From Lysobacterales bacterium (GTDB lineage: Bacteria > Pseudomonadota > Gammaproteobacteria > Xanthomonadales > Marinicellaceae): 32,891 nucleotides of DNA. The DNA lies in the NCBI GenBank assembly GCA_020442725.1, contig JAGRJO010000005.1:1-32891 (forward strand). Reading direction: 5' to 3'. Made by a program: the position numbers and the translations under genes. The first letter of the stretch is position 1; the number at the start of each line of letters is the position of its first letter. This document shows positions 2,914 through 30,177 of this stretch, in pieces. The notes beneath the pieces are model-generated. The model made no database searches, was not told where the DNA came from, and was given only the letters and a program-made list of their open reading frames with translations.

Positions 2914-2943
2914 AAAAAGGGCATACTCGTTATGCCCTTTTTT
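2914..2943 (+). terminator. Rho-independent terminator after the TonB receptor
   Basis: A perfect 12-bp stem (AAAAAGGGCATA pairing with TATGCCCTTTTT) with a five-base loop CTCGT is followed by further T residues. It lies 21 bases after the receptor stop codon and separates that gene from the sulfotransferase operon. Confidence 0.92.
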
Positions 2944-3032: not shown

Positions 3033-4583
3033 ATGAATGGTCAATTACAACAGGACATCGACTTACTTCTTCAGCAACAACAATACTCAAGTGCTCATAA
3101 ACTTCTTAAATCTTTAATAAAAAAAAATAAAAGAGATCCTGAGCTTTATCGTTTAATAGGAATTGTTTTTCTACATGAAAAGAAGTTATTACAATCAGAA
3201 AAGAGTTTTAAACAAGCATTAGTACTCGATAAAAACCATGAGCAAACTCTTCTGAACTTAGCTTTCATTAAACAAATTAAAGCTGATTATATAACAGGTA
3301 TTAAGCTTGTATCTCGAGTTTTAGAAATATCTCCTGACTCGGTGGAAGCTCATTATTTGATGGCAAATTTATTTAAGGCACAAAATAATTTTGAAAAAGC
3401 TGAAGTCCATTTTTTAAAAACACTAGAGCTCCAACCTCAGTATATTGATTGTTTATTAAATTATGCATTATTGTTAAAAAATAATGGAAAAACGGAACAA
3501 GCAGTTGAACAAATTCATAAGGCATTAGCTATCAACCCGTACCAACCGCAAGTTTACTGGATGCTTGCTGATTTAAAAACATACAAATTTAAAAATGACG
3601 AGATACTTTTTATTGAGCAAATGCTTGAAAAAGTAACTTATCATAGGGATATCCAAACTCTTCTTTTTGCAAAAGCAAAATATTTAGAAGATAATAAAAA
3701 GTATAAAAAGTCATTCGATATCCTAACTAAAGCCAATGAAATTAAATTTATAAGCTTTAACCGTGCACCAACTGATTGGAAAAAATTATACAATGAAATT
3801 AAAAAAATATTTCAAAACAAATACGATGATTTCAATCAAGCTCAAATAAGTGATAATGAAAATATTCCCATATTCATTGCTGGAATGCCAAGATCAGGCT
3901 CCACTTTGGTTGAACAAATAGTTGCAACACATTCAAAAGTAACAGGGGCAAGTGAACTGCTAGCTTTGAAAAATATAATGCAAGACCTTAAGGGGGGATT
4001 TCCTCATGGGCTTACGAATTTAAATAATAAACAATTGATGCAGCTTGGTGAGAATTACTTAATAAATACTAGTAAATATCATAAAGAAACAAATATATTT
4101 ACAGATAAATACCATGCAAATTTTATATATTTGGGCTTTATTTTAATGACAAATCCGAATGCTCGTTTCATTCACACAAAGAGAAACTCGATGGATGTTT
4201 GTCTAAGTACTTTCAAACAGAACTTTGCACAAGGAAACGAATATAGCTTTAACTTGAAAGAATTAGTTGATTATCATTTCTTTGAAAAAAAAATGGTAAA
4301 AATTTGGAAGAAATATTTTCCTAAGCAAATTCATACTGTGAAATATGAAAAGGTTGTGAAAAACCCTGATTTACAAATTAGAAAATTATTAGACTTTCTA
4401 AATTTAGAATTTGAGCTTAACTGCATGAATTTTTATAAAACCAAACGCAGTATTAATACAGCAAGTGCTGCTCAAGTTTCCCAACCGATTTATAAAAAAG
4501 CAGTTAAGCATTATAAAAAATATGGCGACTCACTCAAGGAACTGAAATCAATGATTAAAGGTAAACTAAATGGACGATGGTAA
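3033..4583 (+). CDS. TPR-repeat sulfotransferase
   Basis: This is a predicted cytoplasmic enzyme of 516 residues that transfers a sulfo group from PAPS to an unknown acceptor. The N-terminal half (about 1-250) is a run of tetratricopeptide repeats, recognisable by recurring AxxxxxxALxLxP-type helices, a protein- or peptide-binding scaffold. The C-terminal half (about 275-500) is a Sulfotransfer_3-type domain. The 5'-phosphosulfate loop is IAGMPRSGSTLVEQ (about 282-295), and the 3'-phosphate-binding segment HTKRNSMDVCLS has Arg at about 384. It is the first gene of a compact operon, and its last 14 bases overlap the methyltransferase. Homologous TPR-sulfotransferases often sit beside TonB receptors in proteobacteria (recollection, not searched). 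The TPR half suggests a protein or peptide acceptor, as with tyrosine sulfotransferases, but this is inference. The gene looks markedly AT-rich next to the preceding receptor. Confidence 0.9.
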   Translation: MNGQLQQDIDLLLQQQQYSSAHKLLKSLIKKNKRDPELYRLIGIVFLHEKKLLQSEKSFKQALVLDKNHEQTLLNLAFIKQIKADYITGIKLVSRVLEISPDSVEAHYLMANLFKAQNNFEKAEVHFLKTLELQPQYIDCLLNYALLLKNNGKTEQAVEQIHKALAINPYQPQVYWMLADLKTYKFKNDEILFIEQMLEKVTYHRDIQTLLFAKAKYLEDNKKYKKSFDILTKANEIKFISFNRAPTDWKKLYNEIKKIFQNKYDDFNQAQISDNENIPIFIAGMPRSGSTLVEQIVATHSKVTGASELLALKNIMQDLKGGFPHGLTNLNNKQLMQLGENYLINTSKYHKETNIFTDKYHANFIYLGFILMTNPNARFIHTKRNSMDVCLSTFKQNFAQGNEYSFNLKELVDYHFFEKKMVKIWKKYFPKQIHTVKYEKVVKNPDLQIRKLLDFLNLEFELNCMNFYKTKRSINTASAAQVSQPIYKKAVKHYKKYGDSLKELKSMIKGKLNGRW

Positions 4584-5511
4584 TAACAAGTCACAACATT
4601 GGAGCGAATACTGGAAAAGTGGTCAGTTAACCTCGTTACCACAAGATTTTGTGGAAAATTATAGTGGCGAAATTTTAGATGCTTGGGAGAGTAGATTTAA
4701 GACTTTAAGTAATAATTCAAAAATCTTAGATTTATGTGCCGGCAATTGTGCCGTTTCAATTCTAGCATCACAATATTCCAGAAATTTTGATAAAAATTTC
4801 AAAGTCACTGCGACTGATGCGGCAGATATAAATAAAAAGCAAATTATTGAACGATTCCCTGTTGTCGAAAGGGATATACAAAATATAGAAATTGTAGCTA
4901 ACACATATTTAGAAGATTTAGAATTAGCTTCGGCAAATTTTGACTTAATAACCAGCCAATACGGTATTGAATACTGTGATTGGAAAATTGCAGCTGATAA
5001 AGTTTATCAATTATTAAAAAAGAGAGGAGAGTTCACAATGATTTCTCATAGTGGCTCGACCGACATCATTAAACAAATGGAAGTTGAAAGAAATGACTAT
5101 CTGATTCTCTCAAACTCTGAGTTGCTCAGTCAAGTTAGAAAATTTTATACAGGAAAGAATGATTATTTTGATTTCAGAGATAAACTTAAAAAAATTCAGC
5201 CAGAAATTGTACGACATTTTCAAAAATTAAACTCCCCATTACTTCGTTCTGTTTTAATGCTCATGGATAATTTGTATCACATGTCAGAAATTGAATTAAC
5301 TGCAAATAAAGAAAGAATTCTTGGTTTTGTATCACAACTTCAATTCGCAGAGTTGAGAATGAATGATTTGTTATCAGTCACACAAAGAATTAATAACAAC
5401 CCAAATTGGTATCATGCATTTGAAGAAAAGGGTCTAAAACTTCAAACAAAGAAAGATATATATTACAACAGTAACCAAAACAGTGGTGTTTTATACACAT
5501 TTATTAAATAA
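4570..5511 (+). CDS. Class I SAM-dependent methyltransferase
   Basis: This is a 313-residue cytoplasmic enzyme. A Rossmann-type SAM-binding core lies at about 45-160. Motif I is ILDLCAGNCAVSILA (about 51-65), the acidic strand-2 end is VTATDAADI, and the post-motif region is FDLITSQYGIEY, where the Tyr-Gly-Ile replaces the usual acidic/aromatic pattern. The C-terminal half (about 170-313) is helical and unrecognised, and probably holds the acceptor site. The ATG at 4570 lies inside the end of the sulfotransferase gene, giving a 14-base overlap that suggests translational coupling. The S9 peptidase starts 20 bases after the stop. The methyl acceptor is unknown; O- or N-methylation of the same molecule handled by its operon partners is the simplest idea. 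Confidence 0.85.
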   Translation: MDDGNNKSQHWSEYWKSGQLTSLPQDFVENYSGEILDAWESRFKTLSNNSKILDLCAGNCAVSILASQYSRNFDKNFKVTATDAADINKKQIIERFPVVERDIQNIEIVANTYLEDLELASANFDLITSQYGIEYCDWKIAADKVYQLLKKRGEFTMISHSGSTDIIKQMEVERNDYLILSNSELLSQVRKFYTGKNDYFDFRDKLKKIQPEIVRHFQKLNSPLLRSVLMLMDNLYHMSEIELTANKERILGFVSQLQFAELRMNDLLSVTQRINNNPNWYHAFEEKGLKLQTKKDIYYNSNQNSGVLYTFIK

Positions 5512-5531
5512 ATCGAAAAAAGGAAAAAATT

Positions 5532-7499
5532 ATGAAAAAAATTATCATATTAAGTCTGATTTTCTTTGTTTTTACATCAATTCAAGCAAAAGAAATTCCA
5601 CTAAAAGACTTTGCCCAGAAATCACAAATTAATAATATAAAAATATCGCCGAATGGTAAACATTTGGCATACACCTATGAAGATGAAACTGAAATTAAGC
5701 TCGGAATCATGGATATAAAAAACAAAAAAGGAGTATTTACCTTTGATGTAGGCAAGGAGCGAGAAGTCTCACAATATTGGTGGGTTAATGATGAAAGAAT
5801 ATTAGTTCTGGCATCAAATATAACAGGTTGGCTTGATGGTGCCAGAAAAGACCCAATTCTATTTGCAGTAGATATAGATGGCAAAAAGAGGGTTAATCTA
5901 TGGCTCTATCAAATGGCAAGTTTATCTATGGTATCACTTTTGGAAGATGATCCAAAAAATGTATTGATGCTGAAAAGACATTATACAGACAAAGGCGAAG
6001 GGAATTTAGTTAAGTTAAATGTCTACACTGGAAAAACAATTTATGTTGATGATTCTCCGAAACCGGTTGGAGAGAGTAGAGATTCTGTTATTTATTCGAT
6101 TGATGTGGACTTAAATGAAAAGCCAAGAATTGCATTTGAATACGATCCAAAAGACAGAAACAATTTTGATGATGATACAGTCAATTTACACTATAAAGAC
6201 TTTAATCAAGAATGGCATCATCTGGAATTGCCGAAAGTAAAGAAAAAAGTACCAGTTGTCTCATTTATAGGTATTCATAAAAACAATGGAATATTATATT
6301 TTGTATCTGATCATGATTTAGAAGATGGCGGGACACTAGGATTATTTTCATTCAACATTGAAACTCAAAAGATTGATAAGTTATTTAGACATCCGGATGT
6401 TGATATAGCTGGCTCTGTTGTCGGATCTGAAGGAGAAATGCTGGGAGTTTATTATGATGCAGGCTATCGGAATTATTTTTATTTGACAGATGAAAAGTTA
6501 AATGAAGAAATTGGATTCCATAAGTCACTAAGAGCAGCATTTAAAAACGAAAACGTAACTGTTTATAATTATAACAAAAAAAGGGATTTAGCATCAGTTC
6601 ATGTTTATAGTGATAAAAATCCCGGAGATTTCTATATTTTTGACAGGAAGAAAAATAGTGCAAAATATTTAGCAAGCTCCAGACCGAGTATTAAGCCAAA
6701 AGATATGGCTTCTGTAGAGCCATTCATTATGAATGCCAGAGATGGCTTAAAAATGTATGGCCAAATGACGATTCCACCTGGGAAAGAATTAAAAAATCTA
6801 CCATTGGTTATTTATCCACATGGTGGCCCTTATGGAGCAAAAGATTATTGGGGATGGGATAACAGAGCACAAATGCTGGCAAACAGAGGTTACCTGGTGA
6901 TTCAATTGGATTATCGTGGGTCCGGTGGGTATGGTGAGCCATTTGAGAAAGCCGGCGATCAAGAGTGGGGTTATAAAATGCAGGATGATTTAACAGATGT
7001 AACTCATTGGGCAATCAATCAAGGTTATGCTGATAAAGATAGAGTTTGTATTCATGGAGTGAGTTACGGTGGTTATGCGTCCATGCAAGCAGTTGTAAAA
7101 GAACCGGATTTATATAAATGTTCGATACCGGATGCGGGTATCTACGATGTTGAATTACAATGGAAAAAAGCGGATTCTTTTAAAGGAGGTAGAACTAAAC
7201 AGAAAGAGTACTACATGAAAAAAATGATGGGAGATGATTACGAAAATGTAATGCCTAAAATATCCCCCGCACATCATGTTGATAAACTTAAAGCCAAATT
7301 ATTATTAGTTCATGGTCATGATGATGTTAGGGTTCCAATTGAAAATGCATACTTCTTGGAGAAAAAATTAAAAGAAGCTGGTAAGCCTTATGAAACAATT
7401 TATAAAAAGAAAGAAGGTCATGGCTTTCATAAAATAGAAAATCGTATCGAACTTTATGAAAAAATCTTAAAGTTTCTTGATGAAAACATAGGGCATTAA
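5532..7499 (+). CDS. Exported S9-family (prolyl oligopeptidase-like) serine peptidase
   Basis: This 655-residue serine peptidase is predicted to act in the periplasm, since it begins with a clear signal peptide (MKKIIILSLIFFVFTSIQA, cleavage before KEIP). Residues about 25-390 form the seven-bladed propeller region typical of S9 enzymes. The C-terminal alpha/beta hydrolase domain carries the full triad: Ser511 in GVSYGGY, Asp598 in HGHDDVRVP and His630 in EGHGFH. Length and layout match acylaminoacyl/dipeptidyl-peptidase relatives (S9C-like). It is the third gene of the operon, 20 bases after the methyltransferase and 15 before the radical SAM gene. Related S9 peptidases act as lasso-peptide isopeptidases beside TonB receptors in Caulobacterales, so a role in opening or trimming a modified peptide is plausible, but no lasso cyclase is present here. 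Confidence 0.92.
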   Translation: MKKIIILSLIFFVFTSIQAKEIPLKDFAQKSQINNIKISPNGKHLAYTYEDETEIKLGIMDIKNKKGVFTFDVGKEREVSQYWWVNDERILVLASNITGWLDGARKDPILFAVDIDGKKRVNLWLYQMASLSMVSLLEDDPKNVLMLKRHYTDKGEGNLVKLNVYTGKTIYVDDSPKPVGESRDSVIYSIDVDLNEKPRIAFEYDPKDRNNFDDDTVNLHYKDFNQEWHHLELPKVKKKVPVVSFIGIHKNNGILYFVSDHDLEDGGTLGLFSFNIETQKIDKLFRHPDVDIAGSVVGSEGEMLGVYYDAGYRNYFYLTDEKLNEEIGFHKSLRAAFKNENVTVYNYNKKRDLASVHVYSDKNPGDFYIFDRKKNSAKYLASSRPSIKPKDMASVEPFIMNARDGLKMYGQMTIPPGKELKNLPLVIYPHGGPYGAKDYWGWDNRAQMLANRGYLVIQLDYRGSGGYGEPFEKAGDQEWGYKMQDDLTDVTHWAINQGYADKDRVCIHGVSYGGYASMQAVVKEPDLYKCSIPDAGIYDVELQWKKADSFKGGRTKQKEYYMKKMMGDDYENVMPKISPAHHVDKLKAKLLLVHGHDDVRVPIENAYFLEKKLKEAGKPYETIYKKKEGHGFHKIENRIELYEKILKFLDENIGH

Positions 7500-7514
7500 G
7501 CAAGGTAAAATCAG

Positions 7515-10034
7515 TTGGAATACATTCTCAATCCTGAAATAATCATTTTACAAAAAGATGGTCAGTTTATTACTGACTCTTTGAGTTCAATTGATAAAAA
7601 ATACCGAATGGAGTCGGTAGATTTGATTATTTTAAACAACTTTATAACTCCTTGTACAATAAAGAAGTCCGTTGATAGTTTTGTCAGTGGACTTCAATTT
7701 ATAGATGTTTATACACAACAAGAAGATATACGGTTTGCAGAAAATAAAATCAGGGGTTACATTGAGCACTCTATATTAGTCAATGCAAATACTACCGGCG
7801 ACTATTTAACGAATTGTAAAGATATAAAAAAAATTAATAGTTTGCCAGTAACTGATTCTAAATGTTCTGTAGAAAAGAAATACAAACTCAGCAATAATTT
7901 TGCTCTTCTTGTCTCTGAACAAGGCTTTCTGATTAGTCTTTCTCATCAAGAAGAATATTATCAGTTACCGTTAGAATATTTATTGGTTTTATCTTCTGTG
8001 GTTGGAAGAAAAACAATGAATGAAGTGATATCCGAATTAGGTATTATCAAAAAAGAAGATGTAGAGAAAATCTTTTACCAATTGGCAGAAAAGAAATTAA
8101 TTATTGAAGAAGTAAAACACCCATTTCTTTCTCTGCAGACGACCAGTCAAATTAAACAGGAAAATCAAGTTTCTCAAAAGCAAAGCTGGAAGGACTTAGA
8201 ATCTGATAACAGGATCCCTGTCTATTTTGTTCCACACATGGAAAATCATTATCCTTTGGCATTAGGGCTTTTGCACAGCTCTCTAAGTCACTATGATGGT
8301 GGAAGACTTCAAAAAATATTCAATTTCATTCCAATTTCGTATTTCACACCTGAAGTACTGCTCAATCAGGTTTATAGAAAATTTGGTAAAGGGATATGGT
8401 TATTTTCCAACTATATGTGGTCAATTGATTTGAATTTGAAAATATCAAAATTAGTTAAAAATCACAATCCGGAAAACATAACAATTCATGGCGGACCGAG
8501 TACTCCCAATTACTTACAAGCCAGCAGGGATTTTATGAACAAAAATAATTCAGTTGATATTTCTGTTCATAATGAGGGCGAAGTTACAATTTGTGAGGTT
8601 TTAGATAGTATTTTGATAAATCATAATCGGTTGGAGTTCGATAATGAAAAGCTCAGTGGAGTACAGGGCATCACCTATCGCCATCCGAATCAAGATGGAG
8701 AATATATTAAAACTGCTAACAGAGAGAGAATGGCTGAACCTGACCAAATTCCATCCCCTTACATTGAGGGTACATTTGATGGCTATGACGGACGGGTTGA
8801 TGCAGCGATTGTGGAATCAAATCGCGGATGCCCTTTTGGATGTACATTTTGTGATTGGGGTTCGGCTATCAGTCAAAAAGTCAGAAAATACGATTTAGAG
8901 CGAGTAAAAAACGAAATACGTTGGATAGCTGAAAAATCGACAAAGATTTTATGGATAGCCGATGCCAATTTCGGTATGTATGACCGAGATATTGAATTGG
9001 CTTCCTTTATTGTTGAAATGAAGAAAAAGCATGGTTTTCCTCAAGAAGTGGTTGTTAACTATACAAAAAATTCCACCTGGAGGCTGGCAGAAATTATTAA
9101 AATATTTACAGAAGGTCAAATTGTCAGTCAGGGTATCATATCAATACAAACTACAGATGAAAAAACTCTAGAAGTTATCAACAGGAAAAACATCAAAACT
9201 GAAAAATATGATGAACTGGCTCAAGTATTCTCTGATTTGAATCTGCCATTATCAACAGACTTAATGATAGGGCTGCCGGGAATTACTGTTCAGGCATTTA
9301 AAAATGACTTGCAAAGATATATGGATTTGGATGTGTCGGTCAAAGCCTATCCAACTCAGTTATTACCGAATAGCCCCATGGCAAATCCGGAATATTTGGA
9401 AAAGTATCAGATTAAAACTGATGAAAATGATTTCATCATATCGTCTTTCAGTTTCAGTGAAGACGAACTCAAGCTGATGAAGCAACTGAATCGTTACTAC
9501 ATGATTGCTGATGGATACTCTGTATTGAGATATGTCATGAGATATTTGCAATGGGAGTATCAAGTTAAGGCAATAGATTTTTTACACGATTTATTGATGG
9601 AAATAAACTCCAATACTGAAGAACTTCCGTTTACGAGTTGGGTGTTTCGGTATTTTGATACAGCAAAATTCATTCCGGTGGGTTGGTATCGGTTTTATGC
9701 TGAAATTAGTGAGTATATCGTGAAAACTTATCCTCAAGTGAATACTCAAGAATTATCCGAAATCATAAAATTAAATCAGTCCTGTATGCCTGTTGATAGT
9801 TGTGATTATCCTCTGTCAATCGAGTTGAAATATGATTGTGAGAATTATTTTAAACACAATTTGTCGGTAACAGATGATGAACGTAAGAAACTTTATGAGT
9901 TTGGTAATGCCACATTTAGTATAGATGATCCCGGATTGATGGCTCATATCAATTATGAATCTTTACAATATGACTCCCATCAGTACTTTTGGGAGCTAGA
10001 TTCCTCAATATCTCGCGCAAAATCAAAAGTGTAG
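7515..10034 (+). CDS. Cobalamin-binding-type radical SAM enzyme with tandem N-terminal PqqD-like domains
   Basis: This is an 839-residue enzyme. The start is TTG at 7515, preceded by AAGG at 7502-7505; no ATG fits better. Residues about 1-90 and 121-200 look like two related winged-helix units of the PqqD/RRE sort, each ending in a helix with a 'no longer needed loop then hydrophobic strand' pattern (for example KLIIEE). Residues about 215-375 form a B12-binding-like Rossmann domain with HGGPSTP (His325). The radical SAM core has the CxxxCxxC cluster ligands Cys439, Cys443 and Cys446 in CPFGCTFCDWG, then WIADANFGMYDRD and DLMIGLPGIT. A helical C-terminal domain of about 200 residues follows. 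Such enzymes methylate unreactive carbons or do other radical chemistry. It is the last gene of the operon. The substrate is unknown; a ribosomal peptide is suggested only by the PqqD-like modules. Confidence 0.88.
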   Translation: MEYILNPEIIILQKDGQFITDSLSSIDKKYRMESVDLIILNNFITPCTIKKSVDSFVSGLQFIDVYTQQEDIRFAENKIRGYIEHSILVNANTTGDYLTNCKDIKKINSLPVTDSKCSVEKKYKLSNNFALLVSEQGFLISLSHQEEYYQLPLEYLLVLSSVVGRKTMNEVISELGIIKKEDVEKIFYQLAEKKLIIEEVKHPFLSLQTTSQIKQENQVSQKQSWKDLESDNRIPVYFVPHMENHYPLALGLLHSSLSHYDGGRLQKIFNFIPISYFTPEVLLNQVYRKFGKGIWLFSNYMWSIDLNLKISKLVKNHNPENITIHGGPSTPNYLQASRDFMNKNNSVDISVHNEGEVTICEVLDSILINHNRLEFDNEKLSGVQGITYRHPNQDGEYIKTANRERMAEPDQIPSPYIEGTFDGYDGRVDAAIVESNRGCPFGCTFCDWGSAISQKVRKYDLERVKNEIRWIAEKSTKILWIADANFGMYDRDIELASFIVEMKKKHGFPQEVVVNYTKNSTWRLAEIIKIFTEGQIVSQGIISIQTTDEKTLEVINRKNIKTEKYDELAQVFSDLNLPLSTDLMIGLPGITVQAFKNDLQRYMDLDVSVKAYPTQLLPNSPMANPEYLEKYQIKTDENDFIISSFSFSEDELKLMKQLNRYYMIADGYSVLRYVMRYLQWEYQVKAIDFLHDLLMEINSNTEELPFTSWVFRYFDTAKFIPVGWYRFYAEISEYIVKTYPQVNTQELSEIIKLNQSCMPVDSCDYPLSIELKYDCENYFKHNLSVTDDERKKLYEFGNATFSIDDPGLMAHINYESLQYDSHQYFWELDSSISRAKSKV

Positions 10035-12595: not shown

Positions 12596-12738
12596 ACAGA
12601 TTGGCAGAATTCAATGAAAGCGATTTTGCAGAAAATTGAAATTTTTCATAAATTTGTTGTCATAATTTTTGGCAAGATTTCAATTGATGATTTGCTTTCA
12701 TTAAGATGAGAACTGGTTTATTATGTTTAAAAAAACAA

Positions 12739-13665
12739 ATGGAGAATACATTGCAGAATCAACTGATACTCAAAGCGATTGAAGAGGTGAGTCACAAGTT
12801 ATTTGATAAACAAAAACAGATAGAGTTAGCTTTTGCATGTATTCTTGCAAACGGGCATTTGCTTATTGAAGACAAACCAGGTTTAGGTAAAACCACTCTG
12901 GCGAATGCCATGGCTCAAGTATTGGGTTTAAGCTTCAGAAGAATTCAGTTTACCAGTGACATGCTTCCAAGTGATGTTTTGGGCGTTTCTATTTTCCAGC
13001 CGAACACGTCTGAGTTTAAGTTTTTTCAAGGACCAATTTTTACACGACTGTTGCTGGCTGATGAATTGAACCGCGGTACTCCAAGAACTCAGAGCGCTTT
13101 GTTGGAGGCGATGGCTGAGAAGCAGGTGAGTGTCGATGGCAAAACTTATCCACTGGAAAAACCATTTTTTGTGATTGCCACGCAAAATCCAACAGATGAA
13201 GCCGGAACATTTCCTTTGCCGGATTCACAATTGGATCGTTTTACGGTCAGTATTTCACTCGGCTACCCTTCTGAACAATCTGAAAGACAGCTCTATTCGG
13301 ATCAGTTTGCTTCCGCTTTTAGAACACCTTTGAAAAAAGTGGTTGATGAGAAACATCTTCTCCAGGTCCAGGAACATATTGAGTCGCTTTATGCCGGAGA
13401 TGAAGTTAAAGATTATCTTCAACAATTGGTTGCCAAAACTCGAAGCCACAGTCTTTTGGTTGATGGTTTGTCACCAAGAGCCGGGCTGGCAATGTTTCGA
13501 TTGTCTCAGGCAATCGCTTTTATCGATGGTCGTGATTTTGTGATTCCAGAGGATGTGAAAAATGCCTTCACGCCGGTCGCTCAGCATAGGATGAGAAGTC
13601 GTTCAGTTCAGAAAAAAGTGAAGAATATCTTATCGGAAATTCTGCATGAAACAAAAATCCCGTAA
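12739..13665 (+). CDS. MoxR-family AAA+ ATPase
   Basis: This is a 308-residue AAA+ ATPase of the MoxR group, thought to act as a chaperone maturing partner proteins. Walker A is DKPGLGKTT, Walker B is LLLADELNR, and the MoxR-typical segments TQSALLEAMAEKQV, ATQNPTDEAGTFPLP and QLDRF all appear, followed by the lid domain with SPRAGLAM. The start is uncertain. In-frame ATGs lie at 12706 and 12739, neither with a ribosome-binding site, and a TTG at 12751 is preceded by GGAG at 12741-12744. I chose 12739 because the family usually begins close to this point. Its end overlaps the DUF58 gene by 20 bases. The MoxR-DUF58-transglutaminase order is a widespread conserved operon. Confidence 0.92.
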   Translation: MENTLQNQLILKAIEEVSHKLFDKQKQIELAFACILANGHLLIEDKPGLGKTTLANAMAQVLGLSFRRIQFTSDMLPSDVLGVSIFQPNTSEFKFFQGPIFTRLLLADELNRGTPRTQSALLEAMAEKQVSVDGKTYPLEKPFFVIATQNPTDEAGTFPLPDSQLDRFTVSISLGYPSEQSERQLYSDQFASAFRTPLKKVVDEKHLLQVQEHIESLYAGDEVKDYLQQLVAKTRSHSLLVDGLSPRAGLAMFRLSQAIAFIDGRDFVIPEDVKNAFTPVAQHRMRSRSVQKKVKNILSEILHETKIP

Positions 13666-14632
13666 TTCAGAGTCATTTAAAGACCGGCTATTTGCCAAAT
13701 TTGCTCCGAATCTGGTTTTGCATAAAAGTCCCGAAACTTTGCCTCTGAACTTAAATTGGAGAAGAATTTTTGTATTACCGACAAAGCCCGGAATATTCTT
13801 TGGATTTGTTACTTTTTTGATGCTGATTGCCAGTCTGAATTTTAATAATAATCTGGGTTTAATGATGACATTCTTGCTGTTTGGAATTGCTCAGGTTGCA
13901 CTTTACAGAACTTTTTTAAATTTGAAGAGTTTGACAATTCATCATGTTGAGGCTCAGCCGGTTTTTGCCGGTGAAGTAGCAATATTTAAATTACACTTAA
14001 AAACAACTGAAACAAAATTTGATATTGGCACAAAGAATAAGAGCTATGAAAATAGCGTGTTGGAGGTGATACCTGATCAACTCAGTAGTATTAAACACCG
14101 GCTGAGATCACAGAAACGAGGGTGGTTGCAATGTGATAAGGTTAAAATTTACAGCTCTTTTCCGTTTGGAATTTTTTACGCCTGGGTTTGGGTGAATATT
14201 GGTGAGAAATGTTTGGTTTATCCAATTCCGGAGGTGAATCCTCCACCGCTTCCACAAAATGCCGGAGATGAAGGAGATGCCTCCAAAATAACTCACGGTG
14301 ATGATTTTCATGGCTTAAAACCTTTTCAGTCAGGAGATTCTTTGCGGTTGATTGCATGGAAAAGAACGGCTCAAACCGGAGAGTTAATTAGTCGTGAGTT
14401 TCAGCAACATCAGGGCGATAAATTGCTATTGGACTATTCAACTGTTCCATTGTCAGATATGGAAATGAAACTTTCCCGATTGACAGCTTGGGTTTTGAAG
14501 GCTCAAAAATTGCAATTGGATTATTGCTTGAAATTACCGGGGTTTGACTCTGGCTTTGGATATTCTAATGAACATTATCTGAAATGCTTAAAAGCGTTGG
14601 CATTATTTGGACTGGAAAATGAAACTGACTAA
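13646..14632 (+). CDS. DUF58 membrane-anchored protein
   Basis: This is a 328-residue protein with two hydrophobic helices (about 48-66 and 70-88) followed by a soluble region. It carries the DUF58 signature GDDFHGLKPFQSGDSLRLIAW around residue 215-235, continuing to TGELISREFQ. The region after the helices is beta-rich with an RGW...F.FPFG... pattern, as in other members. DUF58 proteins have a von Willebrand-like fold and are encoded between a MoxR ATPase and a transglutaminase, as here. They are probably clients of the ATPase. The gene overlaps MoxR by 20 bases and the TgpA gene by 14, so all three are translationally coupled. Confidence 0.9.
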   Translation: MKQKSRNSESFKDRLFAKFAPNLVLHKSPETLPLNLNWRRIFVLPTKPGIFFGFVTFLMLIASLNFNNNLGLMMTFLLFGIAQVALYRTFLNLKSLTIHHVEAQPVFAGEVAIFKLHLKTTETKFDIGTKNKSYENSVLEVIPDQLSSIKHRLRSQKRGWLQCDKVKIYSSFPFGIFYAWVWVNIGEKCLVYPIPEVNPPPLPQNAGDEGDASKITHGDDFHGLKPFQSGDSLRLIAWKRTAQTGELISREFQQHQGDKLLLDYSTVPLSDMEMKLSRLTAWVLKAQKLQLDYCLKLPGFDSGFGYSNEHYLKCLKALALFGLENETD

Positions 14633-16616
14633 AGCAGAAATTTACAGTTTGAGTTCCAAACAGATATTCTGGATATTGTTGTCGGTTGTTATTTCCACGT
14701 TACCTCATATTCCGCGGCTTCCAATCTGGTTTCCGATTTTGTTATTGATGGCTGTAACCATTCGTTGGTTAACAGTACGAAGAAGGGTTCGTCCATTGCC
14801 CGGTTTTGTCGTTGCTTTTATGACGGTGTTTCTGACATTGGTCATTGTTTATGTGCATGGAATCGGTCTGAATCGGGAGCTAAGTGTCACGATTTTAGCT
14901 GTTATGACGGTCTTAAAAGTCCTCGAAACCTGGCGAAAACGTGATGCCTGGATGGTGGTGACTCTTTGTTACTTTGTGATTCTGACGCGTTTTTTCTATA
15001 GCCAGGATATTTTGCTGATTCTCTATTTGCTTGCTTCGGTTCTGGTGATAACCCACACATTATTTGTTTTACAACATAATGATGATGGCAAATACTTCCT
15101 CAAATCAGAGATTAAACAAACCGGTAGTTTAATGCTGGCAGGAATACCTTTGGCGGCATTGTTTTTTCTATTCTTTCCTCGGTTGGGCAGTCCGATTTGG
15201 GGTTCTCCTGACTTTTTTGGAAGCGGTAAAACAGGCATTAGTGAAGAAATGTCACCGGGTAGTATTTCTCAATTGTTTAGTGATGATTCAACAGCTTTCA
15301 GGGTTGTATTTGATAGCGAAATTCCTGAAATGTCGCAGTTATACTGGCGAGGACCGGTGCTGTGGGATTTTGATGGAATGACCTGGAGCCGAAATAAAAA
15401 GGTAAGTTCTGTTAAAAGAGATTTGAAAAAACCAAACGACCTTCCAATCGTTCATTATGAAGTCGAACTGGAACCAACCGGTCAAAAATATCTTTTTGCT
15501 TTGGATTATATTGTCGATTTTCCCTCAAAAGCGGACTTGAAAGCAGATTCACAACTAATGACCGAACTCGATATCAATCAATTGCGACATTATCAAGCCA
15601 GTTCTGTGATACAGCCATTTAATTCCTATGAAACATTATCAAGAGCGGATTTTGAAAGATTATTAGATTTGCCAACCGGTTACAACTCCAAAACCCAACA
15701 ACTGGTTCAAACGTGGAAATCATCCACAAAATCACCTCTTGAGTTGATTCAAAAAATACTTCAATGGTTTGCTGAAGATGAATTTTATTACAGTTACACT
15801 CCGCCGTTATTACAGGGAGATACCGTTGATCAGTTTTTGTTTGAAACCAAAAGTGGTTTCTGTGAGCATTATGCATCGGCTTTCACTTATATGATGCGTG
15901 CAGCCGGTGTACCTGCCCGAATTGTCACCGGTTATCAAGGCGGAACTGTAAACGAAGAATATTTACAAGTCAAACAGTCTGATGCTCATGCCTGGTCTGA
16001 GGTCTGGATTCACGGAAAAGGCTGGATGAGAGTTGATCCAACGGCGGCAGTTTCACCTTTGAGAGTGGAGCGAGGTTCGCAAGCATTAATCTCTGAAAAC
16101 TCCCGCAGTTGGCATGATACAGAGTGGTATAGAAAACTAGGTGAAAAGTATGATCGTGTGCGCCACAAATGGAATAAGTGGATTCGGGAATATAATGCTT
16201 TGAAACAAAAAGCATTATTTCAAATTATTGGATTCGAGAAACAAGATGCTAAAGCGATTGTGATTGTATTAGGAAGCATCATGCTGGCTACAACTGTTTT
16301 GGTTATGCTGTTTTTATATTTGACACGACCCAAACAAAAACTGAGTCAATATGATAAAGTTCTCAATCAATTCATAAAATTATTTGCCAAAGACGGCTTA
16401 ACGAAACTCAATTATCAAGGAGTGATTGAGTATTCCGAATTGATAAAAAAACAATATCCTCAGCTGAAAGATGAAATTGATAAATTCATCAGTTTATATA
16501 TCAAACTCAGATTTTCAAAATCTCCCAAAAAAATACAAAAAGCAGATTCACAACTTCAAAATTATCTGAAAGCTATCCGCCAGAAAATGATTAATGTCAA
16601 AAAACAGGTTGATTAG
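14619..16616 (+). CDS. tgpA: TgpA-like membrane transglutaminase (DUF3488 plus transglutaminase plus DUF4129 tail)
   Basis: This is a 665-residue inner-membrane protein. Residues about 1-190 hold a cluster of transmembrane helices (DUF3488). A periplasmic transglutaminase-like domain at about 380-490 has the Cys-His-Asp triad: Cys415 (SGFCEHYA), His457 (DAHAWSEVW) and Asp473 (MRVDPTAA). A further helix lies at about 545-568, followed by a cytoplasmic DUF4129-like tail. TgpA of Pseudomonas aeruginosa has this architecture and its periplasmic domain has been reported to show transglutaminase activity. The ATG at 14619 overlaps the DUF58 stop by 14 bases. An in-frame TTG at 14607 would add four residues and is less likely. 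It is the last gene of the operon. Confidence 0.92.
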   Translation: MKLTKAEIYSLSSKQIFWILLSVVISTLPHIPRLPIWFPILLLMAVTIRWLTVRRRVRPLPGFVVAFMTVFLTLVIVYVHGIGLNRELSVTILAVMTVLKVLETWRKRDAWMVVTLCYFVILTRFFYSQDILLILYLLASVLVITHTLFVLQHNDDGKYFLKSEIKQTGSLMLAGIPLAALFFLFFPRLGSPIWGSPDFFGSGKTGISEEMSPGSISQLFSDDSTAFRVVFDSEIPEMSQLYWRGPVLWDFDGMTWSRNKKVSSVKRDLKKPNDLPIVHYEVELEPTGQKYLFALDYIVDFPSKADLKADSQLMTELDINQLRHYQASSVIQPFNSYETLSRADFERLLDLPTGYNSKTQQLVQTWKSSTKSPLELIQKILQWFAEDEFYYSYTPPLLQGDTVDQFLFETKSGFCEHYASAFTYMMRAAGVPARIVTGYQGGTVNEEYLQVKQSDAHAWSEVWIHGKGWMRVDPTAAVSPLRVERGSQALISENSRSWHDTEWYRKLGEKYDRVRHKWNKWIREYNALKQKALFQIIGFEKQDAKAIVIVLGSIMLATTVLVMLFLYLTRPKQKLSQYDKVLNQFIKLFAKDGLTKLNYQGVIEYSELIKKQYPQLKDEIDKFISLYIKLRFSKSPKKIQKADSQLQNYLKAIRQKMINVKKQVD

Positions 16617-18573: not shown

Positions 18574-20640
18574 TTACCAATGCAGATAGAGATTGAAATA
18601 AATATTTCTGCCTTCTCCCGGTAATCTGTAGGCTTGTAAATTTGAAGCATCAAAACCGACATCTGTATTCAGATTGTTGCGGTTATAACCATTCAGGTGG
18701 TTGTAATATTGTTTATTAAAAACATTATTCATGCCAAAAGCGATATTTGCGGAATCAGTGAGTTTAATATTCGATGCTAAATTCAGCAAACCATAACCGG
18801 GAGTTGTTTTTTCCTTATTAGTTGATGAAATATTTTCCTGAGACTGATAAGCGACAATCTCAGAAGATAGACTCCAGTTGGAATTGGCATAAACCAGCTC
18901 AATTCGGGTGTTCAAAGGTGCAATTCGATAAAGGTTATCGTCAATATCTTTGCGTTTTCCGCGAACATAGGATGTGACGTTATTCAAAGTGAGACTGGAG
19001 TTGAATTTGTAACTGAACTCCATATCTGCACCGTAAAGTTCCGCATTCACATTGTTGAATGTCAAAGTATTTGGTGGAGTCGGTGAGCTGGTTGTCGGTG
19101 TTCCTTGAATGTAGTCGCTGATATCATGATAAAAAACATGTGGCGAGAAACTCAGTTTGTCATTGCTGAAGTTTAAACCCAGCTCAAGTTGGTTGGCTTT
19201 CTCGGGTTTGAGGTTTAAATTTCCGAAATATTGCAAACCATCTGCCATTCCTGCTGTGGCTTCTAAAGGCAACCACAAATAGCGTTCCTGATAACTTGGA
19301 GAACGAGTTTTTCGCGCGAAACCATATTCTAAAGAGAGGTCATCATTAATCTTTTGCTCAAAAGTGATGGCTAAATCCAGATTGTTATCGTTGATATTTC
19401 TATCTAAATTATTGAATCTGTCTTGTAAGGCTCTATGCAAATTGCCCATAGAGTTTTGCATCATGGAAACGGAAGAATACACATCAGCAGCACTCATATC
19501 CACAAAAGTGTATCTCAAGCCGGTTGTCATTTGAATTTTTTCGGATAGTTTCTTTTCAAGTTCAGCAAATGCGCTGTGCCTGTATTTCCGTGTATCAAAA
19601 TTGGTAATACTAAACATAGGATTATCAGGATTTGTAATTGTAGCTTGATGAGCTGTGAAATCTCCCTCAAGTCCAAATGTCAAATTCCCAAAAGCTTGAT
19701 TGGAATTTGCTGTTAGTGAGTAGCTATTGTTGTTCACTTGAGTGAGTGAGTCTTTTTTATCTGTAGTGGAGCGAAACAAATAATTGTTCATCAAATGGTC
19801 GGTATTTTGATGAGAGAACTGCGAATTCAGAGATAAACTATCATTAACTCTTAACGCATGTTCCAAACTAATTACGCCACCTTCAGCATAAACAATGTCC
19901 ATTGGTAATGAAGGCGTTCCTGTATTGCCGGTATCGTTATAGTTGAGTTTTAGTTTGAGTTCCTGATTATCAGATTTGAAGTTGTAGCCAAACATATAGA
20001 AATCGCGGTTATATTCTGTACTGTAATTTTTACCGTTCGGAAATTTAAAACTGTCACCGCTTTCACTATCAAAACCGAGATAGATATTATGGAATTCAGA
20101 TGTGCCTGATAAAAGGACTGATGTTTTTTTGCCAGAGTTAACCGTTGAAAACCCTGAACTGACATCACCATGCAATTGAAATGCTTCTGACTGATTGATA
20201 TTTTCTTTGGCGATAACGCTAATACTTCCTCCGATGGATTCGATAGCGGAACTAACCGGAGAAATTCCACGTTTTAAAACCACCGCATCAACCATCGAAG
20301 CGGGAATATGGCTCATTGCAGTATCCATTGAGTTTGAGCAAGATTCTTGCATGGTGATGTTATCAATTTGAACATTGACGCGGTTACCGAATAAACCGCG
20401 ATATTGGGCGATGCCGGATAGAGGACCATTTCTATTGACATTCGCTCCGGGAATTTTTTTCAGAACTTCAGGCGTGTCGATGATGCTTTGAGCATTTTCC
20501 GGAAGTAATTTGACAATATTCTGTTGGTTGTTTTCATGTCCGATAACTTCGATATTATCTAACTCTTCTTTGTCAGTTAAGGTTTGTGTGAAAGCAAGTG
20601 ATGATGAAGTTAGAAGTAACGACAATATGGTTTTATTCAT
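18574..20640 (-). CDS. OprC/NosA-like TonB-dependent copper receptor
   Basis: This is a 688-residue outer-membrane receptor, probably for copper. The start ATG at 20640 has GAGA just upstream and gives a proper signal peptide (MNKTILSLLLTSSSLAFTQ); longer in-frame starts begin in the promoter region. The plug carries RGLFGNRVNVQIDNI and GISPVSSAIESIGGSISV, close to the OprC/NosA pattern. Two motifs match the published copper site of Pseudomonas OprC: C101xxxM105 (in ESCSNSMD) and H282xM284 (in DHLMNN), about 181 residues apart, as in OprC (about 180). The C-terminal strand ends YLHW, so the terminal aromatic is Trp. It is divergent from regB, across 129 bases containing a promoter and a perfect palindrome. 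Metal choice is inferred from motifs. Confidence 0.9.
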   Translation of the reverse strand: MNKTILSLLLTSSSLAFTQTLTDKEELDNIEVIGHENNQQNIVKLLPENAQSIIDTPEVLKKIPGANVNRNGPLSGIAQYRGLFGNRVNVQIDNITMQESCSNSMDTAMSHIPASMVDAVVLKRGISPVSSAIESIGGSISVIAKENINQSEAFQLHGDVSSGFSTVNSGKKTSVLLSGTSEFHNIYLGFDSESGDSFKFPNGKNYSTEYNRDFYMFGYNFKSDNQELKLKLNYNDTGNTGTPSLPMDIVYAEGGVISLEHALRVNDSLSLNSQFSHQNTDHLMNNYLFRSTTDKKDSLTQVNNNSYSLTANSNQAFGNLTFGLEGDFTAHQATITNPDNPMFSITNFDTRKYRHSAFAELEKKLSEKIQMTTGLRYTFVDMSAADVYSSVSMMQNSMGNLHRALQDRFNNLDRNINDNNLDLAITFEQKINDDLSLEYGFARKTRSPSYQERYLWLPLEATAGMADGLQYFGNLNLKPEKANQLELGLNFSNDKLSFSPHVFYHDISDYIQGTPTTSSPTPPNTLTFNNVNAELYGADMEFSYKFNSSLTLNNVTSYVRGKRKDIDDNLYRIAPLNTRIELVYANSNWSLSSEIVAYQSQENISSTNKEKTTPGYGLLNLASNIKLTDSANIAFGMNNVFNKQYYNHLNGYNRNNLNTDVGFDASNLQAYRLPGEGRNIYFNLYLHW

Positions 20641-20673
20641 GTTCTCAGTATTTTTTATTCGAATTCGGGCGAC

Positions 20674-20702
20674 ATGATACTTGTTCAGGCAGGATTGGTA
20701 AA
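20674..20702 (-). promoter_or_regulatory. Sigma-70-type promoter of the copper receptor
   Basis: On the minus strand, TTTACC (plus-strand 20697-20702) and TATCAT (20674-20679) are separated by exactly 17 bases. Transcription would start near 20667, about 27 bases before the receptor ATG. The palindrome at 20703-20719 abuts the -35 box. Confidence 0.6.
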
Positions 20703-20719
20703 TGCGACAAATTGTCGCA
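20703..20719. promoter_or_regulatory. Perfect palindrome resembling a RegA/PrrA binding site
   Basis: TGCGACAAATTGTCGCA is a perfect inverted repeat (8-base arms, one central base). It contains GCGAC-N5-GTCGC, matching the GCGNC-Nx-GNCGC form known for RegA/PrrA sites. It is centred about 44 bases upstream of the predicted receptor start point, where class II activators sit, and lies between the receptor and regB. A further half-site GCGAC occurs at 20669-20673. Confidence 0.65.
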
Positions 20720-20769
20720 CCAAAGACGTTGAGGTAACAAAAATACTCAAAGTGGTTTAAAATTCCCAA

Positions 20770-21987
20770 ATGAATCATTTTTCACGTCATGTTACTGCAT
20801 TTTGGCTTAGAAATTTTCTGATAGTCGGTCAGATTGTCGTTTGGTTTACTACCAGAAACATCTGGAACATCATTTATCCGAGTTCAGTTTTGACTCTTAG
20901 CGGCATGTATTTTTTGATAAATATACTGTTCTGGCTGACAAGAAAAAACAGTAATGACTGGATATTCTTTTTTCAGCTTTTGATTGATATTGTTGAGCTG
21001 TCCTTGTTCTTTTATTTAACCGGCGGTTCGAGCAATCCTTTTACTTGGTTTTTGCTCATTCCAATCATATTTTCAGCTACCACGTTACGCTCAAAACACA
21101 CATGGTTGCTGACACTTTCTGCTGTTATATCCTACACTTTACTGATTAAATTCTTTCAGCCTGTAAGTATGGAAGCAAGTATGCATCACAACCATCACCA
21201 AACCAGTTTTAGCCAGCATTTGATTGGTATGTGGCTTGGCTTTATTGTCATTGCTTTGTTGTTATCTTGGGTGATTATTGGTCTAGTAAATAATATTCGC
21301 AGAAAAGATTCCCAGCTGATGCAGGCGAGTCTCAATCAGGCGAAAAATGATAAAATACTGGCTTTGGCGACTTTAGCAACTGGTTCCGCACATGAGTTGG
21401 GAACACCTCTGGCAACCATAAACATCATCATTAAAGAGATGTTGAAGAATCCGCAACTTGTTGATTTTCATAAACAATTACAAATTGTGGAATCTCAAGT
21501 TTACAGATGTAAAGATTCTCTGACACAAATTACAGCCTCAACAGGAACGACACAAGCTATTAAAGGCAAGAAGTTGACTGTTGGGAAGTTCATTGAAAAA
21601 GTTCTGAACTCTATTCATCCACCAGAATCAGTTCAACTGGAAACGAAAGTTTGTGAGTTCACCAATCAACAACAGATGATTTCAGATAAAACTTTGGTTC
21701 AGGCTTTGGTAAATATTATCAATAATTCCTTTCAGGCAGAGTCCACAAAAGTTGTTCTTAAGAGTGAGATTTCATCCGATGAGTTAAATTTTATAATTAC
21801 AGATAATGGAAAAGGTCTCGATGAAGAATTTGGCAAGCCGATAGATTCGGATAAAGAGTTTGGCATGGGCTTGGGGCTGTTTTTGGCTCACGCAACCATT
21901 CAAAGATTTTCCGGAAGTATTAATGTAAAAGATGTGGATTCATCCGGTACTCAAATTGTTATTTCATTGCCGATATTGCAAACATGA
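20770..21987 (+). CDS. regB: RegB/PrrB-type redox sensor histidine kinase
   Basis: This is a 405-residue membrane histidine kinase sensing respiratory redox state and phosphorylating RegA. Six transmembrane helices lie in about 12-175. The periplasmic loop between helices 3 and 4 has the RegB hallmark GGSSNPF (85-91), linked to quinone binding. The H-box is GSAHELGTPLATI with His208. Cys247 in SQVYRCKDSL matches the conserved 'redox-box' cysteine. The ATPase domain (about 300-405) has NxxxNS (INNSF), DNGKGLD and GMGLGLFLA. The ATG at 20770 has no Shine-Dalgarno sequence, and a stop at 20758 prevents a longer start. The loop between helices 5 and 6 contains MHHNHH (138-143), a possible metal site. 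The stop overlaps regA by four bases. Equivalent names elsewhere are prrB, actS and roxS. Confidence 0.93.
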   Translation: MNHFSRHVTAFWLRNFLIVGQIVVWFTTRNIWNIIYPSSVLTLSGMYFLINILFWLTRKNSNDWIFFFQLLIDIVELSLFFYLTGGSSNPFTWFLLIPIIFSATTLRSKHTWLLTLSAVISYTLLIKFFQPVSMEASMHHNHHQTSFSQHLIGMWLGFIVIALLLSWVIIGLVNNIRRKDSQLMQASLNQAKNDKILALATLATGSAHELGTPLATINIIIKEMLKNPQLVDFHKQLQIVESQVYRCKDSLTQITASTGTTQAIKGKKLTVGKFIEKVLNSIHPPESVQLETKVCEFTNQQQMISDKTLVQALVNIINNSFQAESTKVVLKSEISSDELNFIITDNGKGLDEEFGKPIDSDKEFGMGLGLFLAHATIQRFSGSINVKDVDSSGTQIVISLPILQT

Positions 21988-28216: not shown

Positions 28217-28503
28217 TTAAGATTGTAACAATACAAGTAGCGATAATTATAACATGCTCCAATGAAGTTTAGCTGAATGTGCTATTTAATAAAGCGTATT
28301 TATCTGCTTTTCAATTTACATAGTCGAAGTTTGAAAAACTAATTATTAAATAATATGATTCTCTGTATTAATTCACAAAAATCTAACATATTTTGTGCTA
28401 AGATTTTGGAATCTTGCTGAAATTGTGTTTTGACCAAACCACTAAACTCAGTTCGGTGAGATAAGGACTTATATTTTTTAAATTATTGACAGAGGAAATA
28501 CCT
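28217..28503 (+). other. Promoter region before the metalloprotease
   Basis: This 287-base gap is the longest in the window, and it separates the divergent AmpE-like gene and metalloprotease. It contains a good plus-strand promoter at 28331-28359 and a small perfect hairpin AAGATTTTGGAATCTT near 28401. No coding sequence, repeat or further signal was found. Confidence 0.6.
28331..28359 (+). promoter_or_regulatory. Sigma-70-type promoter of the metalloprotease
   Basis: TTGAAA (28331-28336) and TATGAT (28354-28359) are separated by exactly 17 bases. Transcription would start near 28366, giving a leader of about 138 bases before the ATG at 28504. Confidence 0.6.
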
Positions 28504-30141
28504 ATGAAAAAATACATACATACATACATACATACATACATTTTAGCGTGCCTGATATTTGCATCAGTTTCTCACGCAGTTAATTACCATGCTATTGAAA
28601 ATCGACCGGATTTTGTAAGTCTCAATCCGCAACCAATGACGAATGAACATATCTTCAAGGCTGGTTTAGGACATGAGAATGCCTTAATCAATGCCAGTTA
28701 TATTCGTTTTAATAAACGTGCCTTAAGTGTTTTCAAAGGAGAGAATGGCAAATTCTATGAAGCCCCAAACACACAAATGTCAGGTCAACAAATACCCATC
28801 AAAGTTCCTGACAGCAACCAACCATTATTTCTCAATTTTGAGAATGTTCAGAATCTGATAGAAGGAGAGGATGTTGTCACTTATACAGGGCATGTAGAAG
28901 GTGATACCGGGAATTTCTTCACAATCTCTGTTGATGGTGATAATGTTATGGGCAAGATCAATTATGGCAAATTTATTTATATCATCGCACCACTGGAAGG
29001 TCCCGGCAATAAACACTCCATTGCCAAATTGGAAAAGAGGTTGATGAATAAGGATACTAGCGAAGATGTTATTGGTGAAGAAGGTATTGAAAAAAAAGCT
29101 GTTAATTATGTTGAAAAATGGGCTAACGGTACAGGTTATGTAAAAGTATTGTTCTACTTCTCCAGTGATGTCTATTGGCCGAGTGCTTATGTTAGCACAA
29201 TTGTATCTGAAATGAATGCGGCACTTTTTCGTAGCGGAGTCGCTTCCAATAACTCTATATCATCTGCCGGTATGAAAATTATAAACTCCACTTTTTCAGG
29301 ACAATGTAAATATGATATTTTGAATAAAATGGGTTACTCATTAAGCGAATTTTCTAATATACAACAAGATATAGTTACTTATGGAGCTGATATTGCAGTC
29401 TTAATTGTTAGATCAAATACAGGTCAGCAATGTCAAGCTGGATTTAGTGGTAGAGTAGGTGGCTTAGCTTATGGCTATTTATCACAATATCCATTTGCAG
29501 TAGTCGCAGACTCTTATGCTTTGGGAGATTTGACAGCATTGCATGAGATTGGGCATATATTTGGTGGTGCTCATGCTGTTGCAGGGGGATATCCGGGTGT
29601 TTACTCATATTCCAGAGGCCTAATTTATTTTGATCACCAAAACCCGGATAATAGTTGGCAAACCATTATGGGTGCTTATGGAACAGGCTCTGATGACTGT
29701 GTCTTTAATGGTCCATATTCACCCTGTGAAAGAATAGATTATTTCTCAAATCCGAGTAAGTATTACAATGGGATTGCTACCGGTGCTTCCAATAGAAATA
29801 TGAAACAATCATTAAATAATACAATGCCAATAGTTTCGGGATGGAGAGGGAATGCTTTGACTGTACCTTCAGCGCCCAATCCAATCTCATCGCAAAGCGG
29901 AGCTTGCTATGGTATGAATACAATTCACTGGACAGCGCAATCGAGCGCAACACAATATAAACTCTATTCATCCTCAAGTTCATCATTTGGTTCTCCGGCA
30001 CTAGTATATAGTGGTTCAGCAACAGGAACATTCATAAATGTAGCTGGAACTGAGTATTTAAGGGCAAAAGCTTGTAACTCAGCAGGTTGCAGCGCATATA
30101 GCAATCAAGTCGTTGCCACATATACAAATGGTTGTTTTTAA
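28504..30141 (+). CDS. Secreted metzincin-type zinc metalloprotease, repeat-tract signal peptide
   Basis: This is a 545-residue exported zinc protease. The ATG at 28504 has AGAGGA at 28491-28496. The signal peptide (about 1-28, ending SHA) is encoded by 7.5 tandem copies of ATAC, giving the repeat IHTY. A pro-region-like segment (about 30-190) precedes the catalytic domain (about 205-440). The zinc motif HEIGHIFGGAH has His347, Glu348, His351 and His357, followed by a candidate Met-turn Met389 in IMGAY, as in metzincins (M12-like). The C-terminal domain (about 445-540) resembles fibronectin type III, a carbohydrate- or surface-binding module. Cysteine pairs suit a secreted enzyme. The target is unknown. 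See the phase-variation finding. Confidence 0.88.
   Translation: MKKYIHTYIHTYILACLIFASVSHAVNYHAIENRPDFVSLNPQPMTNEHIFKAGLGHENALINASYIRFNKRALSVFKGENGKFYEAPNTQMSGQQIPIKVPDSNQPLFLNFENVQNLIEGEDVVTYTGHVEGDTGNFFTISVDGDNVMGKINYGKFIYIIAPLEGPGNKHSIAKLEKRLMNKDTSEDVIGEEGIEKKAVNYVEKWANGTGYVKVLFYFSSDVYWPSAYVSTIVSEMNAALFRSGVASNNSISSAGMKIINSTFSGQCKYDILNKMGYSLSEFSNIQQDIVTYGADIAVLIVRSNTGQQCQAGFSGRVGGLAYGYLSQYPFAVVADSYALGDLTALHEIGHIFGGAHAVAGGYPGVYSYSRGLIYFDHQNPDNSWQTIMGAYGTGSDDCVFNGPYSPCERIDYFSNPSKYYNGIATGASNRNMKQSLNNTMPIVSGWRGNALTVPSAPNPISSQSGACYGMNTIHWTAQSSATQYKLYSSSSSSFGSPALVYSGSATGTFINVAGTEYLRAKACNSAGCSAYSNQVVATYTNGCF
28512..28541 (+). repeat. Tetranucleotide tandem repeat (ATAC)7.5 inside the protease signal peptide
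   Basis: Seven perfect ATAC units plus AT occupy 28512-28541, three codons after the start. Loss of one unit puts the frame directly onto a TAG. Gain of one unit reaches a TAA about 14 codons after the tract. Such tracts change length by slipped-strand mispairing. Confidence 0.97.
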
Positions 30142-30177
30142 ATTGAACATTACGAAAATATTGATTTCTACGAATTG

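Follow-up and report, generated by a model that had tools for sequence, protein, structure and literature searches.

What does a bacterium make, or modify, with four tightly packed genes that follow a TonB-dependent receptor gene? We analysed such a locus in a Lysobacterales bacterium (Marinicellaceae; assembly GCA_020442725.1, contig JAGRJO010000005.1), where positions 1 to 32,891 form the 32,891-nucleotide stretch referred to below as the window. The four genes encode a tetratricopeptide repeat (TPR)-sulfotransferase, a class-I S-adenosylmethionine (SAM) methyltransferase (MT), an S9 family serine peptidase and a B12-type radical SAM enzyme. A first-pass annotation had proposed a peptide or small-molecule modification pathway coupled to uptake. 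Our results support modification coupled to uptake, and a tandem fold like the recognition element (RRE) of ribosomally synthesized and post-translationally modified peptides (RiPPs) shifts the proposed substrate towards a polypeptide. We give an even chance to the reading that the locus encodes a module for RRE-guided polypeptide tailoring, coupled to the receptor, and think the chances of polypeptide tailoring as such somewhat better than even.

The radical SAM enzyme and its N-terminal modules

The catalytic part of the radical SAM protein carries an intact CX3CX2C motif (Cys439, 443 and 446) that is invariant in an alignment of relatives, and the AlphaFold2 (AF2) model of the full protein had a predicted local distance difference test (pLDDT) score of 87. 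In Foldseek comparisons this part matched TokK and CysS at E 1e-35 to 1e-32 (for TokK, E 1.4e-35 and a target TM-score of 0.71), and both enzymes were also among the sequence matches. Similarity to KedN5 was below the family cutoff (NCBIfam NF033712; 248.4 bits vs. 700). Because of the KedN5 similarity, the TokK/CysS sequence matches and the Foldseek match we assign the protein to the B12 type; by fold and motif it is a probable B12-dependent methyltransferase of the TokK/CysS-like superfamily, with predicted cobalamin binding and C-methylation. In a metagenome-assembled genome (MAG) of the Actinomycetes, KedN5-like radical SAM open reading frames (ORFs), at least five in number, follow one another head to tail (L069:1-14553).

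Ahead of the catalytic part stands a domain that also yielded a pLDDT of 87 when folded alone. VIA-align comparisons of its first module returned TigE (Z 11.0), MccB (Z 10.9), TbiB1 (Z 9.8) and PbtF (Z 8.8), and those of the second PqqD (Z 7.5); further RRE matches of the domain were MibB and NisB (both Z 10.7) and lasso B1 (Z 9.3). The closest structural matches are thus peptide-recognition domains of peptide-modifying systems, and the modules have the order of elements that defines an RRE (PMC12710340). On these models the protein appears to be a TokK/CysS-type methyltransferase preceded by two RRE/PqqD-like modules in tandem, which are predicted to bind a peptide. Mean identity among relatives was 16% in the RRE-like region and 57% in the remaining, catalytic protein, a low conservation that fits the tracking of a changing recognition sequence. 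The tandem RRE-like fold suggests that the substrate is a ribosomally made polypeptide, which we regard as likelier than a free small molecule.

Several observations weigh against a polypeptide substrate. The best-studied relatives, TokK and CysS, have small molecules or tethered intermediates as their substrates. DNA-binding proteins and proteins associated with nonribosomal peptide synthetases (NRPS) can have RRE-like folds too (3dee winged helix, Z 8.4; oxidase BmdC, Z 7.9), and a sequence profile search for RREs yielded just TfuB1, at a non-significant E of 1.4. A search around about 60 loci brought up no conserved small ORF that is plausible as a precursor. The operon junctions (an overlap of 14 bases between the sulfotransferase and MT genes, then gaps of 20 bases before and 15 bases after the S9 gene) leave no room for a precursor gene, and no exporter is encoded near the operon; the first-pass annotation had likewise seen neither precursor nor exporter nearby. 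RRE assignments to radical SAM proteins have proved false in documented cases (PMC7470986).

The most recurrent small-ORF families were rejected as precursors: they were ExbD or frames antisense to ExbD, housekeeping genes, other antisense frames, and frames derived from signal recognition particle (SRP) RNA. In six loci a small lipoprotein with the pattern C....TGS......C is encoded next to the gene for the MT or the radical SAM enzyme (e.g. L021:9485-9790 and L020:4075-4389), and its TGS portion is similar to VTGSRI, with which the receptor plug starts; it is absent from the window, and we judge a precursor role unproven. Since the search for a precursor returned none, the locus cannot be classed as a RiPP cluster, though it would work like RRE-dependent peptide tailoring. 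A cobalamin riboswitch, considered as a sign of B12 uptake, had no match in the window or in the five related loci scanned, where the sole Rfam match was the SRP RNA in L164.

Partners of the radical SAM gene across genomes

A scan for the radical SAM protein over 84,980 species genomes gave 80 loci, from which we kept 41 (L009-L047, L049 and L053) where the relative is 44-60% identical and spans the whole protein or most of it. Apart from one Rubrivivax MAG, the hosts are Gammaproteobacteria, with Marinicella, Arsukibacterium, Rheinheimera, Glaciecola, Aliikangiella, Kangiellaceae, Lysobacterales and Wenzhouxiangella represented; named carriers of the system include Marinicella litoralis, Arsukibacterium ikkense and Aliikangiella coralliicola. 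A receptor homolog lies near the radical SAM gene in 20 of the 41 loci and an MT gene in 20, while S9 homologs (8/41) and TPR-sulfotransferases (4/41) are less frequent. Gene orders and orientations of receptor, MT and radical SAM genes vary between loci, with the receptor gene usually directly upstream of that for the MT. The first-pass annotation had raised the recurrence of all four families together as a check. Receptor, MT and radical SAM enzyme do co-occur strongly, but the full four-family set was found outside the window only in L015 and L033. More distant radical SAM relatives (clade B, 33-41% identity) stand in varied contexts with no common substrate clue, and viral contigs gave only partial matches to the radical SAM protein, mostly to the catalytic part.

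The association is stronger at the level of whole genomes. When 28 genomes with the radical SAM gene, linked or unlinked, were searched, 26 had the MT and 26 the receptor (47-72% identity to that of the window), and in 12 of the unlinked genomes receptor and MT genes were close neighbours at a second site. A solitary radical SAM gene is found in most Marinicella and in Glaciecola-type genomes. Seven loci of the latter type (L018, L019, L030, L034, L041, L042 and L045) show metA and a methionine synthase gene (metH) split into two ORFs, followed by the radical SAM gene. Among 200 genomes of the order to which the window belongs, 23 have the radical SAM gene; strict MT matches (E 1e-70 or better) were present in 19 of these and in 20 of the 177 others (Fisher's exact test, p = 2e-12, a guide only, as shared ancestry is ignored). 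The two genes are at most 2.5 kb apart in 13 of the 23 genomes. In one genus of this sample (g274), 11 genomes have the radical SAM gene and 7 lack it.

There were exceptions. G520 has no MT match despite its radical SAM gene, G448 encodes TPR-sulfotransferase, radical SAM enzyme and MT with no such receptor at E 1e-60, and in G476 the set is present but its receptor is divergent. The G476 locus (L235, about 18 kb) contains the divergent receptor, the MT, several TPR-sulfotransferase-like ORFs, a TonB cluster, the radical SAM gene and an ORF resembling 2-oxoglutarate (2OG) oxygenases. In G470 (L234) one unit has the order receptor, radical SAM enzyme, TPR-sulfotransferase, MT. Related TPR-sulfotransferases were found in L015, L033, L035, L043, L158, L159, L161 and L234, and at least five additional receptor-MT loci hold S9 homologs. 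The conserved core consists of receptor, MT and radical SAM enzyme; S9 peptidase and sulfotransferase are optional.

Relatives that lack the radical SAM gene, some of them in the window's own genus, often have a gene for a 2OG-Fe(II) oxygenase (PF13759) between or beside those of the receptor-MT pair (e.g. L215:8224-8871, L224:8041-8772 and their relatives), as if the oxygenase stood in place of the missing radical SAM enzyme. Other neighbours of the pair are additional TPR-sulfotransferases, a Sulfotransfer_1 protein, a TPR-2OG oxygenase, S9 peptidases and a TPR-GT41 (OGT-like) glycosyltransferase (L196:5613-7514). Such families (2OG oxygenases, sulfotransferases, GT41) include known polypeptide modifiers. 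A DUF3450-ExbB-ExbD-TonB cluster adjoins the receptor-MT pair in several genomes, which supports active uptake.

Operon layout, encoded proteins and base composition

On re-examination the four genes, their boundaries and their spacing agreed exactly with the first-pass annotation, and its family assignments were confirmed by domain searches, fold and inspection of the signal peptide (Table 1).

Table 1. Features of the receptor and operon region, in window positions.
Feature	Position	Strand	Evidence and remarks
TonB-dependent receptor, 884 aa	238-2892	+	Pfam Plug 8.8e-23, beta-barrel 2.8e-41; partner receptor of the system
Intrinsic-terminator-like hairpin, 12 pairs, T-rich tail	2914-2942	+	Consensus match only; between receptor gene and operon
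TPR-sulfotransferase, 516 aa	3033-4583	+	Sulfotransfer_3 E 4.8e-36; TPR repeats
Class-I SAM MT, distinct family, 313 aa	4570-5511	+	Methyltransf_25/11 weak, best E 2.9e-05
S9 family serine peptidase	5532-7499	+	Peptidase_S9 1.9e-52; N-terminal signal peptide
B12-type radical SAM enzyme, probable C-methyltransferase	7515-10034	+	Radical_SAM 1.6e-17; AF2 model; TokK/CysS fold; TTG start
Putative tandem RRE/PqqD-like modules, radical SAM N-terminus (residues 1-97 and 113-199)	7515-8189	+	AF2, VIA-align

The TPR-sulfotransferase scored 125.5 bits against Sulfotransfer_3 (cutoff 27), with TPR families also above cutoff, and carries the motif PRSGSTLVEQI, which resembles the loop for 3'-phosphoadenosine-5'-phosphosulfate (PAPS). 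The MT is a weak yet typical class-I methyltransferase, and its alignment shows a conserved family. The S9 protein begins with MKKIIILSLIFFVFTSIQA, by eye a typical signal peptide, and none was seen by eye in the TPR-sulfotransferase, the MT or the radical SAM protein. Its domain and an intact triad (Ser511, Asp598 and His630, invariant across 9 homologs) identify it as an S9 serine peptidase. By curated cutoffs it is neither a lasso peptide isopeptidase of the AtxE2 type (NF033523; 53.7 bits vs. a cutoff of 400) nor a dipeptidyl-peptidase Dpp5 (NF053518; 84.8 vs. 900).

The receptor gene does stand in front of the operon on the same strand, as annotated, but probably belongs to a separate transcript because of the terminator-like hairpin between them. 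The suggestion that the AT-richness of the operon hints at acquisition was only partly borne out. Total GC content is indeed lower in the four operon genes (0.295-0.344) than in the receptor gene (0.397) or the other window genes (0.35-0.45). This deficit arises mainly at codon positions 1 and 2, reflecting protein composition, and GC at third codon positions (0.236-0.315) is not below that of the receptor gene (0.233; four other window genes, 0.27-0.28), so composition is a weak argument for acquisition and AT-richness is unconvincing as proof of transfer. None of the 10 further genomes sampled from the window's genus has the radical SAM gene, which is present in 11 other sampled family members; gain or loss of this gene within the family therefore did occur.

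Elsewhere in the window, at 18574-21987, a second TonB receptor starting at 20778 on the minus strand adjoins a PilS-like histidine kinase starting at 20770 on the plus strand; the two genes diverge, and their start codons lie in a 9-base overlap. At 12706-16616 the genes for a MoxR ATPase, a 328-aa protein without Pfam match and a TgpA-like transglutaminase overlap serially, and a 613-aa protein without Pfam match follows. A Reprolysin-like M12B metalloprotease (28486-30141) precedes two further proteins without Pfam match (30177-31157 and 31301-32215).

Candidate substrates and comparison with known systems

From the computed gene orders, families, co-occurrence, folds and intact motifs we infer a polypeptide substrate, the following order of steps and the direction of transport. 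In the cytoplasm, the two RRE-like domains of the radical SAM protein would grip a ribosomally made polypeptide, which the enzyme would C-methylate at an unactivated carbon; the class-I MT would add a methyl group and the TPR-sulfotransferase a sulfate group. Once in the periplasm, the peptide would be trimmed or degraded by the exported S9 peptidase; the dedicated receptor in the outer membrane would re-import the finished peptide, or a peptide-ligand complex, with TonB energy. The likeliest substrate would be a peptide whose gene lies elsewhere in the genome; that such a peptide is taken up by the receptor is a tentative proposal, with somewhat less than an even chance of being right. Should the best reading hold, a widespread group of Gammaproteobacteria makes an unseen methylated, sulfated peptide and imports it through a receptor of its own, and the tandem RRE-B12 enzyme is a searchable marker for the system.

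The substrate could instead be a small molecule, either a metallophore-like compound that is built and re-imported or an imported compound that is processed, as proposed for the oxygenases beside PiuA, Fiu and CciT. TokK and CysS, and also KedN5, act on small or tethered intermediates, and tailoring often includes aryl sulfation and methylation. Pairs of a TonB receptor with a 2OG oxygenase are known in fiu-ybiX, piuA-piuC and cciT-cciO and are thought to process imported compounds (PMC12004943). A small molecule would leave the tandem RRE-like domain with no obvious role, however, and the window contains no NRPS, polyketide synthase (PKS) or other scaffold-making gene cluster. The receptor also scores below the NCBIfam cutoffs for siderophore and B12 receptors (TIGR01783, 59.6 vs. 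223.5 bits; TIGR01779, 116.8 vs. 599.7 bits). We consider a small-molecule substrate unlikely.

Alternatively the receptor itself, or another envelope protein, might be the substrate, with the cytoplasmic enzymes methylating, sulfating or hydroxylating the unfolded receptor before export; the purpose might be to tune ligand binding or to hide the receptor from phages and bacteriocins. It is the only conserved non-enzyme of the set, its gene usually adjoins that of the MT, the accompanying enzyme families include polypeptide modifiers, and a separate precursor gene did not emerge around the loci searched. Yet no receptor position convincingly tracks the radical SAM gene, the one weak difference being A652 to S/G in a comparison with four close receptors from genomes that lack this gene. 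Since G448 has the enzymes without such a receptor and the RRE-like region changes much more rapidly than the receptor does, an obligatory receptor substrate is disfavoured, and we rate receptor modification as rather improbable. An extended form, in which an interchangeable RRE/TPR-guided enzyme set (C-methylation, methylation, sulfation, hydroxylation and possibly O-glycosylation) re-tools the surface of a single TonB receptor, seems to us improbable. If the receptor were the substrate, the locus would represent a new way to alter an outer-membrane transporter.

That the four genes are chance neighbours with unrelated jobs, or share only their regulation, is very improbable: most relatives lack the S9 peptidase and sulfotransferase and the Glaciecola-type radical SAM gene sits with metA-metH instead, but the core genes co-occur strongly across genomes and are repeatedly linked in differing orders and orientations, and S9 and sulfotransferase genes re-appear at receptor-MT loci.

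The first-pass annotation did not recognise a described system, and no published description of this gene combination was found in the open-access literature searched, with subscription papers mostly outside that search. RRE-guided polypeptide tailoring coupled to uptake would connect research on RRE-guided peptide modification with that on TonB-dependent uptake, two fields with little contact, and the nearest known systems each share a part of it. The TokK/CysS/KedN5-type B12-dependent radical SAM C-methyltransferases have the catalytic fold and CX3CX2C motif in common with the window enzyme, which differs in its two additional N-terminal RRE-like modules and in standing outside any carbapenem, NRPS or PKS context. 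Lasso-peptide uptake clusters of the AtxE2 type also place a TonB receptor and an S9-family peptidase beside peptide-modifying genes, but the S9 protein described here is under the isopeptidase cutoff and the window genes include no lasso synthetase, that is, no leader peptidase or cyclase. Bacterial peptide tyrosine sulfation of the RaxST type presumably relies on the same PAPS-dependent sulfotransferase family; the window protein differs in its TPR fusion and its TonB receptor context, and no RaxX-like peptide was seen. The fiu-ybiX, piuA-piuC and cciT-cciO pairs combine a TonB receptor with a modifying oxygenase and so resemble those relatives of the present system that lack the radical SAM gene, whereas the window has no oxygenase, a larger enzyme set that includes methyl and sulfate transfer, and a receptor outside the siderophore-receptor cutoffs. 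In RRE-dependent RiPP clusters (PqqD/PqqE, TigE, lasso peptide B1) a modifying enzyme is likewise fused to, or works with, a fold of the peptide-recognition kind; in contrast to these, no precursor gene was found near the operon, its radical SAM enzyme carries two putative modules in tandem, and this enzyme is accompanied by a sulfotransferase, a methyltransferase and a TonB receptor.

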